A stretch of DNA of 8,756 bases, from the NCBI GenBank assembly GCA_021160245.1, contig JAGHCW010000092.1, positions 1 to 8,756 on the forward strand, in the 5' to 3' direction. Shown here in pieces: positions 6,155-8,756 of the stretch. The notes below the pieces were generated by a model that was given only the letters and a program-made list of their open reading frames with translations, was not told the DNA's origin and ran no database searches. Source of the DNA: a bacterium. GTDB taxonomy: Bacteria; B130-G9. The position numbers and the translations under genes were made by a program. The number at the start of each line of letters is the position of its first letter. Positions within the stretch are counted from its first letter, which is position 1.

Positions 6155-7471
6155 ATGGCAGAGATCATTTTGTCCTTGAACTGCGGTAGTTCTTCGGCCA
6201 AGTACCAAGTCTATAATTGGGATAAGAAGAAGACGATGGCTAAAGGCATCGTTGAGCGGGTAACCATCGAAGGCTCTTTTATTAAGCACGAGGTTCCTGG
6301 CCGAGACGAGCATGTGGAGCACCACGAGTGCCCAGACCACAGGGAAGCACTCTCTCTTATTCTTAACATGCTCGTGGACAAAGATCAGGGGATACTGGAG
6401 AAGATCTCAGACATTAGCGCGGTCGGGCACAGGGTAGTCCACGGCGGCGAGAAGTTCGCCAAGTCTGTTAAGATCACCGACGATGTGCTTAATACATTTA
6501 AGGAGCTCAGCCCACTCGCCCCACTGCACAATCCCCCAAACATTCAGGGGATTGAGGCGGCGATGGAGGTTCTGCCCAACGTGGCCCATATTGCTGTTAT
6601 GGACACGGCCTTCATGCAGACGATGCCGGCGACAAGCTATACCTATGCCGTCCCTCACGAGTGGTATGACAAGTACCGTGTTAGGCGTTATGGCTTCCAC
6701 GGCACATCACATCTTTACGTCTCAAAGCGAGCCGCCGTCATGCTCGGAAAGTCGCCATCCGAGTGCAACCTCATCACGTGCCACATCGGCAATGGCGTGA
6801 GCTTCACAGCGATCAAAAACGGCGTGGCTTTCGACCACTCGATGGGCCTGACGCCGCTTGAGGGGCTCGTTATGGGCACAAGGTCCGGCGACCTCGACCC
6901 GGCGATCATTTCCTTCATCTGCAACAAGACCGGCATGACAGTCCAAGAGGTTGAGAAAACGCTCAACAAGAAGAGCGGGCTACTCGGCATCACCGGCAAA
7001 TATACCGACCGCCGGGACATCCTGAAGGCCGCGGCCGAGGGCGACGAGAGGTCTCAGCTCGCGATGGACGTTGAATGCTACCGCATAAAGAAATATATCG
7101 GCGCATACTACGCCGCGCTTGGCCACCTTGACGCAATCGTCTTTACGGCCGGCGTTGGCGAGATGAGCCCTGAGATTCGAGGCAAGTCCCTTGAGAACAT
7201 GGAAGAGCTCGGCATCAAGCTCGATACTAAACTCAATGAAGAGACAAAAACCCACAACCACGAATCCGTCATCTCGACGAACGATTCCAAAGTTAAAGTT
7301 CTCGTCATCCCAACTGACGAGGAGTACGTCTTCACCGCCGATGTCGTCGCGATACTTGAGGGTCGATATGACGTCCACACGAAGTTCGAATACTCCTTCC
7401 AAAGCCCCGATTACGTGAACTCCATGCGCGATGAAGCTTACAAGAAAGAGCTTCTGGCCAAGAAGGGATAA
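6155..7471 (+). CDS. ackA: Acetate kinase
   Basis: Interconverts acetate and acetyl phosphate with ADP/ATP; with phosphotransacetylase it links acetyl-CoA to ATP formation. No pta gene is in the window. From ATG 6155, which has an AGAGGG ribosome binding site, the protein is 438 residues. Key residues of the sugar kinase/hsp70/actin fold are present at a constant offset from the Methanosarcina enzyme: Asn9 in LNCGSSSAKY, Arg93 in GHRVVHGG, Asp150 in MDTAFMQTMP, His182 in GFHGTSH and Arg243 in MGTRSGDLDP. Two points are odd. The usual GIGEN motif reads GVGEM (333-337), and the adenosine-contacting region reads TDRRD (284-288). The protein also runs about 35 residues past the usual end (after about residue 404). 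The frame opens earlier, at 6053, but that 34-residue extension overlaps the promoter and lacks family similarity. Confidence 0.95.
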   Translation: MAEIILSLNCGSSSAKYQVYNWDKKKTMAKGIVERVTIEGSFIKHEVPGRDEHVEHHECPDHREALSLILNMLVDKDQGILEKISDISAVGHRVVHGGEKFAKSVKITDDVLNTFKELSPLAPLHNPPNIQGIEAAMEVLPNVAHIAVMDTAFMQTMPATSYTYAVPHEWYDKYRVRRYGFHGTSHLYVSKRAAVMLGKSPSECNLITCHIGNGVSFTAIKNGVAFDHSMGLTPLEGLVMGTRSGDLDPAIISFICNKTGMTVQEVEKTLNKKSGLLGITGKYTDRRDILKAAAEGDERSQLAMDVECYRIKKYIGAYYAALGHLDAIVFTAGVGEMSPEIRGKSLENMEELGIKLDTKLNEETKTHNHESVISTNDSKVKVLVIPTDEEYVFTADVVAILEGRYDVHTKFEYSFQSPDYVNSMRDEAYKKELLAKKG

Positions 7472-7495
7472 CACGCCGACGGGTGATTATGGAGT

Positions 7496-7513
7496 GCGGC
7501 GGCCAGGCGCCGC
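7496..7513. repeat. Left-arm outer hairpin
   Basis: A perfect 6-bp stem GCGGCG/CGCCGC has the loop GCCAGG and is followed on the plus strand by TTT. It lies 24 bases beyond the ackA stop codon. It is the structural counterpart of the hairpin at 7640-7655. Confidence 0.6.
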
Positions 7514-7520
7514 TTTGGCT

Positions 7521-7540
7521 CGCCGCGGCTTGACGCGGCG
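7521..7540. repeat. Left-arm inner hairpin
   Basis: A perfect 7-bp stem CGCCGCG/CGCGGCG with loop GCTTGA can extend by one T-A pair (7520 with 7541). No T-run follows, so it is not a classical intrinsic terminator. Its loop recurs in both hairpins of the opposite arm. Confidence 0.6.
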
Positions 7541-7611
7541 ACCTCAGATCGATTGGCATCCAGGTCTCCGTATCATTTGTCTGAAAGGTCAAATGGGGCA
7601 ATTCAAAGAAG

Positions 7612-7631
7612 GGCGGTGTCAAGCCACCACC
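7612..7631. repeat. Right-arm inner hairpin
   Basis: On the minus strand a 7-bp stem GGTGGTG/CACCGCC, with one G-T wobble, encloses the loop GCTTGA. Stem length, loop and spacing equal those of the left inner hairpin, although the stem bases differ at four positions on its first strand. Confidence 0.55.
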
Positions 7632-7639
7632 AATGAAAG

Positions 7640-7655
7640 CGGCATCAAGCTGCCG
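7640..7655. repeat. Right-arm outer hairpin
   Basis: On the minus strand a perfect 5-bp stem CGGCA/TGCCG encloses the loop GCTTGA and is followed by CTTT. It lies 35 bases beyond the stop of the radical SAM gene. It is the counterpart of the hairpin at 7496-7513; the innermost G-C pair there is an A-T pair here. Confidence 0.55.
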
Positions 7656-7690
7656 TACTCCAGAAGGCCAAGCCGCCGGCGCGAATCTGC

Positions 7691-8756
7691 CTACTCCGGG
7701 CCCCCAATATGTGCCCAGGGGAAGACCTCATCGCGCGACCTAGCTCGAGCCGCATAGAACTCCGGGTTCACGTCAACCGCGCGCCGGGCCGCCTGCCAAT
7801 TAAGATCGCTCTCAGCGAGAGCGTAAATCAGCTTTGAGCAGCGCCTATCGCCTCGTGACAGCACCCCCTGAACAAAGGCCCACTTCGGCAAATCCGAGTG
7901 CACCAAAACCCCACGCGTGCCCCGCAGACCTTGCTTCACCGCCTTGATGCGCCTCATAAGCTCATCCGGCGCCATCATCGACTCCCATTGAAATGGAGTC
8001 TGCGCTTTCGGCACAAATGACGAAAGCGAGACATTAATCGGCAGGTCGCGCTTGCCAGAAGACCGCTGCCTAACCTCGTGCTTCATCCGCTTAACAAGAT
8101 CGCAAACCGCCCCAATATCGGCCATAGTCTCCCCAGGAAGGCCCAGCATAAAATACAACTTGAGCCTCGATAAGCCCGACGCCGCCACGCGCGCAGCGAC
8201 CTCAAACAACGACTCGTCGGACGCCGGCTTTCCTATCGACGCGCGGAGGCGCTCCGTGCCCGCCTCGGGTGCGATCGTTACAGTCTGCTGGCCACCCAGC
8301 TTGAGGAGCTCCAGAAGCCCGAAAGATGCCCTGTCGGCCCTCATTGATGATACCGTCAGGCGACGCCCCATATCGAGTATGCCCTTCAGAATGGGAATAA
8401 GGTCCGGGTGGTCAGAGACGGATGACCCTAAAAGGCCTATCGTGTCCCGATGAGGCATCATCGCCCGCGCCGCCTCAAGCACAGCAGCCGGACTCATAAA
8501 GCGCACCGGCCGATTGCAGAACGAAGCCATGCAGAAGCGGCACCCACGCGGACACCCTCGCGCAACCTCAACAACGCCCAAATGGCCGAACTCTGTCCCG
8601 TCCGTGAAAATAGCCGTCCGCGCCGGCCGCAACCGCCCAGCCGGGATGCAGCGCCTCGTAACCGTCCCCCGCCGCCCGAGCGCCTTGACCCGCGCGACCG
8701 TCCCGTCTGGGGCATATTCCGGCTCAAACAGACAGGGTATATAGACACCCTCTATC
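7691..8756 (-). CDS. Radical SAM protein of the B12-binding-type family, 5' part missing
   Basis: Partial gene: the frame is open to the right edge, so the start and N-terminal part lie outside. About 354 residues are visible. The first read GVYIPCLFEPEYAPDGTV (near 8699-8749), the linker seen before the radical SAM core in B12-binding-domain proteins. The core follows with CPRGCRFC, a CxxxCxxC iron-sulphur and S-adenosylmethionine motif near 8531-8554. Later motifs are APEAGTERLR, KLYFMLGLPGET and SSFVPKAQTPFQW, and the end reads EVFPWAHIG. These match uncharacterised radical SAM proteins (the TIGR03960-type group, from memory), in which a cobalamin-binding domain precedes the core. The substrate is unknown. 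The usual downstream DUF2344 domain is neither fused nor adjacent, as the gene ends facing ackA. The gene looks G+C-richer than its neighbours. The TTG at 8632 should not be taken as the start: the family linker continues upstream of it. Confidence 0.82.
   Translation of the reverse strand, partial: IEGVYIPCLFEPEYAPDGTVARVKALGRRGTVTRRCIPAGRLRPARTAIFTDGTEFGHLGVVEVARGCPRGCRFCMASFCNRPVRFMSPAAVLEAARAMMPHRDTIGLLGSSVSDHPDLIPILKGILDMGRRLTVSSMRADRASFGLLELLKLGGQQTVTIAPEAGTERLRASIGKPASDESLFEVAARVAASGLSRLKLYFMLGLPGETMADIGAVCDLVKRMKHEVRQRSSGKRDLPINVSLSSFVPKAQTPFQWESMMAPDELMRRIKAVKQGLRGTRGVLVHSDLPKWAFVQGVLSRGDRRCSKLIYALAESDLNWQAARRAVDVNPEFYAARARSRDEVFPWAHIGGPE

Follow-up and report, generated by a model that had tools for sequence, protein, structure and literature searches.

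The window, a stretch of 8,756 nucleotides of bacterial DNA, contains an intergenic region of 219 bp (7472-7690) that lies between two convergent genes, encoding acetate kinase and a radical SAM protein (Table 1). Within this region are two inverted arms of 54 bases, each comprising an outer and an inner hairpin, and separated by a central segment. The arms align without a gap and are identical at 37 of 54 positions, whereas 300 dinucleotide shuffles of the region gave a best inverted 54-mer of at most 32 identities (mean 25.3). The inverted arms and their hairpins, first picked out in an initial annotation of this DNA, are therefore real. The intergenic strand alone also folds more stably than its shuffles, whether calculated as RNA (z = -4.0) or as DNA (z = -2.8).

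The differences between the two arms are largely as first described. On passing from the left arm to the right, the innermost G-C pair of the outer hairpin becomes A-T. In the inner hairpin three pairs are changed on both strands (two from C-G to G-C and one from C-G to T-A) and a fourth from C-G to a T-G wobble, while the GCTTGA loop and the length of 7 bp are unchanged. Some details require correction. The loops of the outer hairpins are unlike, being GCCAGG on the left and GCTTGA on the right, and in the right arm the outermost G-C pair of the outer hairpin has been lost (A.C). The feature is not bounded by 7487 and 7665; homology to other copies runs from ~7474 to ~7700, so that element homology takes up all of the space from ackA to the radical SAM gene. 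Nor are the differences in the inner hairpin peculiar to this copy; the copies have in common a left and a right type of arm between which these differences are fixed (22 arms of each type in this genome).

Table 1. Features of the ackA-radical SAM gene region, with the evidence for each. Coordinates are positions in the window.
Feature	Position	Strand	Evidence or remarks
Acetate kinase ackA (Pfam PF00871), intact	6155..7471	+	Own stop codon, directly abutting the truncated left end of the element
Element remnant	7474..7700	+	Right end kept, left part and left terminal repeat missing; bounds ~+/- 3 bp
Left double-hairpin arm (left type)	7487..7540	+	GGAG foot, hairpin 1, CTTT spacer, hairpin 2; covariance model 74.9 bits
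Left outer hairpin GCGGCG-GCCAGG-CGCCGC	7496..7513	+	Sequence, pair counts
Left inner hairpin CGCCGCG-GCTTGA-CGCGGCG	7521..7540	+	Sequence, pair counts
Central segment between the arms	7541..7611	+	Eight-copy alignment; homologous in most full-length copies of the same genome
Right double-hairpin arm (right type)	7612..7665	-	Covariance model 68.5 bits
Right inner hairpin GGTGGTG-GCTTGA-CACCGCC	7612..7631	-	Pair counts; also a terminator-like site facing the radical SAM transcript
Right outer hairpin, core CGGCA-GCTTGA-TGCCG	7639..7656	-	Pair counts; also a terminator-like site
Right terminal inverted repeat remnant CCCGGAGTAGGCAGATTCGCG	7680..7700	-	Right-end alignment; copy L020 has CCCGGAGAATCAGATTTATG for comparison
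Radical SAM protein (Pfam PF04055)	7691..8755	-	C-terminus truncated; stop codon 7691-7693 from the element

How widely are these arms dispersed? The genome of the window (3.43 Mb, 244 contigs) has three relatives of the same family, Candidatus Coatesbacteria, denoted G001, G002 (MAG JAFGIT01, Zod_Metabat.233) and G003 (MAG QMNL01, B130_G9). To our knowledge Candidatus Coatesbacteria is a phylum without cultures. Expressed as a degenerate pattern, the outer hairpin has 45 matches in the genome of the window compared with three for a reversed control pattern, together with 38, 26 and 114 matches in the three same-family genomes and 18 in a distant genome, G042. A covariance model was built from 33 arms, and 116 genomes were searched with it. 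This located at least 45-49 arms per Coatesbacteria genome, these being lower limits as no more than 49 candidates were scored for each genome, with 28 arms in G042, four in G053 and none in the other 110. In the genome of the window nearly all the copies are intergenic. Their gene context is tandem in 14 cases, convergent in five and divergent in two, with one copy inside a predicted ORF and a further six unassigned. The tetranucleotide GGAG is found at the foot in nearly all copies. At three loci of this genome (L012, L022 and L024) the arms are broken by, or adjoin, the sequence GAGGCTGTCCAATA(A/G)G, apparently the end of another insertion element. No Rfam covariance model matched the window above its gathering score, we found no description of repeats in Candidatus Coatesbacteria in the literature searched, and of the papers listed in a search with the arm core GGAGTGCGGC all were unrelated.

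The homology among aligned copies extends well beyond the arms. In independent copies conservation ends abruptly at the same two points, and the termini match as inverted repeats; in recent copies in G003 homology begins sharply at CCCCAATAATCAGATT and stops sharply at AATCTGATTATTGGGG. Intact copies, of ~320-330 bp, have the terminal inverted repeat CCCCAATAATCAGATTGA at both ends, and both in the genome of the window and in G003 these repeats enclose two inverted double-hairpin arms. Complete copies are ~265-355 bp in length, most being 315-330 bp, and are thus too short to hold a transposase gene. Candidate pairs of terminal repeats, 41 in all and each with both flanks available, were analyzed for target duplications, taking the expectation from cross-pairing of flanks. 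Exact duplications of 4 bp were found for seven of the 41 (0.54 expected) and of 5 bp for three (0.22 expected); since the list includes some overlapping or false pairs, the true duplicated fraction is somewhat higher. Examples in the genome of the window are CGTTA (L013) and ATCTA (L019). About three quarters of the complete copies have no exact target duplication. In the whole-genome collection CCCCAATAATCAGATTGA occurs almost only in Coatesbacteria MAGs, and there is no exact match to it in the viral collection. With respect to the fixed ends, the interior of the G003 copies (L071-L084) points one way in six copies and the other way in seven, which suggests that inversion between the inverted arms is frequent. 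These are the properties of a MITE: a short element devoid of a transposase gene, with common terminal inverted repeats and target duplications.

The copy in the window is incomplete. An nhmmer profile of eight copies from the same genome spans it almost end to end, and its bounds were set by alignment with intact copies. The left ~100 bases of the element are missing, and there is neither a left terminal repeat nor a target duplication. On the other side the radical SAM protein ends with PWAHIGGPE, and its stop codon lies inside the element. The orthologues in G001, G002 and G003 extend beyond the site of insertion by ~25 residues or more, that of G001 continuing past the start of the element as PWAHIASGVPLDELWRRLESYRAQTKEADSR. 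The radical SAM protein of the window has therefore lost ~25 C-terminal residues to the element, showing that an insertion of this kind can both shorten a gene and provide it with a stop codon. In the relatives there is no element downstream of the ackA orthologues. Gene order differs in these genomes, none of which has a direct empty site corresponding to the ackA-radical SAM junction (the radical SAM orthologues were used in its place), and so the ackA junction is also a point of rearrangement.

The local hairpins are maintained among the arms. Among 44 arms in the genome of the window, 95 and 93% of cells are paired in the two local hairpins. In the alignment of 33 arms 97.0% of pair cells are paired compared with 88.3% in shuffles, and 57 cells are double changed compared with 20.5; sliding the partner columns by 1-3 positions destroys the pairing signal. 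One pair of the outer hairpin exists in C-G, T-A, A-T and T-G forms, and the next as G-C or A-T. Even the loop-closing C-G pair has turned to G-C, generating a GGTTCA loop, in one arm of the window's genome and in several of G001. Thus the many intergenic copies with covarying stems predicted in the initial annotation have been found, with at least 49 matches to the covariance model. A cruciform, or long stem formed between the arms, was considered as the conserved structure and rejected. For the outer hairpin the likeness of arms within the same copy is 0.790 and that between different copies 0.801, so that arms of one copy are no more alike than those of different copies. Since the long stem is not kept within copies, the conserved unit is the local hairpin.

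Selection on structure, as the initial annotation suggested, is the natural reading of the covarying stems. The covariation itself is observed, but its attribution to selection is less certain, because palindrome correction by template switching can alter both sides of a stem. There is an appreciable chance, if short of an even one, that the paired changes arose by such correction during replication, or by copying between hairpins, and not by structural selection; this would affect the interpretation of the covariation only, and not the identity of the element as a MITE. The changes in the inner hairpin amount to a single fixed left-right difference, and the variants of the outer hairpin are few, some of them tied to one loop type (GCCAGG with CGCC). 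Moreover the flipping of the G003 interior indicates that exchange between inverted repeats does occur. However, correction fits less well with the variety of forms taken by the outer pair and its neighbor on several copies, or with reversal of the loop-closing pair in two genomes, and if fast it should lead to identity of whole arms within a copy, which is not seen.

We consider it very probable that the repeat in the window is a decayed copy of a Candidatus Coatesbacteria MITE family that has double-hairpin arms of the REP/BIME type. The dispersed, mobilized palindromic repeat of REP/MITE type that had been put forward as a candidate is thus supported by the copies, the covariation and the local hairpin as conserved unit, and to it are now added the terminal repeats and target duplications of a larger MITE. 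Most probably a DDE-type transposase, encoded by an insertion sequence with the same ends and acting in trans, would have recognized the CCCC ends and inserted the element at a staggered cut of 4-5 bp. The hairpin core probably began as a REP/REPIN-like unit; it would have inserted into the MITE, or been taken up by it, and then moved as part of it. At this locus the element would have inserted into the 3′ end of the radical SAM gene, with loss of the last ~25 codons and gain of a new stop, and its left end would have been lost later, in a deletion or rearrangement that brought the remnant up against ackA.

What might mobilize the MITE? No transposase was found between these terminal repeats in the four incomplete MAGs, which is weak evidence given that MAGs break at repeats. 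Searches for exact matches in the genome and viral collections also revealed no autonomous relative with the same ends, and the loci around the terminal repeats contain no transposase-bearing element. Many described MITE families have no known helper. Elements of the IS1380 family have CC ends and make target duplications of 4-5 bp, and in these respects provide a lead, but a lead only; no match of terminal repeats was found, and of two degraded PF13701 fragments in G001 neither has terminal repeats around it, so that the helper is not assigned to this family. In G002 sequences with the same ends as the MITE run off the ends of contigs, and the interior is absent from this MAG. Separately, a sequence starting CCCCAATAATCAGATTGACGGTTTTTGAGAGG is common to the ends of at least seven G002 contigs (L126, L130, L138, L142, L146 and L150 are among these ends), and is probably a high-copy repeat or an unassembled insertion sequence. 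It is also carried by a contig (L187) of a Sedimentisphaerales MAG of the same series, possibly as a result of misbinning.

The interior of the element is exchangeable. The terminal repeats of the MITE also occur in G001, but the 315-326 bp that they enclose there are different, with no GGAG arms and with the unit GATACCGTGGGTAGCCG...CCGTCAGGCTG..GCCTGCGGCTACCC instead. This unit also flanks, several times, an intact Y1_Tnp (RAYT-like) gene of G001 (L105). The gene lies amid repeated GTGGGTAGCC REP doublets at L105:1300-2450 (contig C146), an arrangement that constitutes a REPtron, and the GTGGGTAGCC REP unit of this REPtron is also present inside the terminal-repeat MITEs of that genome. G042 has a terminal repeat of another sequence, CCYAAATCTCCGGCTAA, within which are found three kinds of hairpin interior unrelated to one another (L041/L048, L231, L232 and L234). 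The first has GGAG double-hairpin arms, in two copies of 250 bp that are 99.2% identical, one with the target duplication ACTCC; the second, of 140 bp, has the palindrome GTAGGGGCACGGCATGCCGTGCCCCTAC, and the third, of 344 bp, has CTTG-loop hairpins. Compact GGAG multi-hairpin clusters devoid of terminal repeats are also present in this genome. The swapping of interiors under the same ends, together with the existence of clusters without terminal repeats, indicates that the hairpin core can be parted from the terminal repeats. The elements are composites of a 'REP-in-MITE' kind, in which REP-like hairpins lie inside the ends of a cut-and-paste transposon. We suggest tentatively, with rather more doubt than confidence, that they belong to a recurrent class in which unlike terminal repeats in at least two phyla repeatedly carry exchangeable REP/REPIN hairpin interiors. 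If this is true, mobility systems that read double-stranded DNA ends and single-stranded DNA hairpins are nested, and might help each other to spread.

Roughly half of the arm pairs in the genome of the window are without terminal repeats, and so the core may also spread alone. It could then be argued that what moves is the pair of GGAG arms, as a REP/REPIN-like entity carried in single-stranded form by an HUH (RAYT-like) transposase, and that the MITE is only a frequent landing place. This would account for the arms that lack Coatesbacteria terminal repeats and for the compact multi-hairpin clusters in G042 and G053, and would agree with the reading of local hairpins having a fixed foot tetranucleotide by HUH enzymes (PMC6006769), as well as with the G001 terminal repeats enclosing a REP unit that also flanks its tyrosine transposase gene. 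Yet we regard it as unlikely. The target duplications sit at the outer terminal repeats, GGAG arms flank no tyrosine transposase (Y1_Tnp) gene in G001-G003 or G042, and the foot differs from that of described REPs, which is GTAG or CGTC. In addition the genome of the window holds only a 53-residue fragment of PF01797, and a RAYT was therefore rejected as the mobilizer within that genome. As a MITE with a REP-like core, the family offers a natural test case for the spread of REP hairpins in the absence of a RAYT enzyme.

A bidirectional terminator or RNA-stabilizing structure that serves the host and is kept by selection on RNA folding would suit the location between convergent genes, the covarying stems, the mostly tandem or convergent disposition of copies near genes (two of 21 are divergent) and two predicted terminator-like sites on the minus strand with CTTTC and CTTCTTT tails (0.4 expected), but is highly improbable for an element that is absent from the ackA locus of relatives, has inserted into and truncated a gene, and possesses transposon ends and target duplications, so that termination may be a by-product (exaptation). 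Of the structured terminator proposed at the outset, a local role is thus possible, but it does not explain the dispersal.

The family has features of several known systems. The bacterial MITEs RUP, NEMIS/Correia, ERIC, Nezha and EFAR are non-coding, intergenic elements of the 70-300 bp class with terminal inverted repeats and strong secondary structure, and are thought to be moved in trans (PMC3733652). The present family resembles them in all these characteristics, movement in trans being the probable mode here also. It differs in having a duplicated double-hairpin core in which the local hairpins covary while the termini are fixed, in the replacement of this core by an unrelated REP unit between unchanged termini, and in the new sequence of its terminal repeats. 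The arms themselves are like REPINs, BIMEs and RAYT-associated REPs, which are short imperfect palindromes with a constant foot tetranucleotide, arranged as inverted doublets in many intergenic copies. REPs are defined by GTAG (or CGTC) at the foot of the hairpin (PMC3733652, PMC6006769); here by contrast the foot is GGAG, there is no RAYT gene linked to the arms, and the doublet is often inside a terminal-repeat element with duplications. In TIRtrons (TIRYT) tyrosine transposase genes lie between long terminal repeats, and these repeats are found as repeat families as well (PMC3733652), whereas in our elements there is no tyrosine transposase between the terminal repeats, and the duplications of 4-5 bp point to another chemistry. 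MITEs and REPs are thus both known kinds of element, and what is new is a MITE with a REP-like core.
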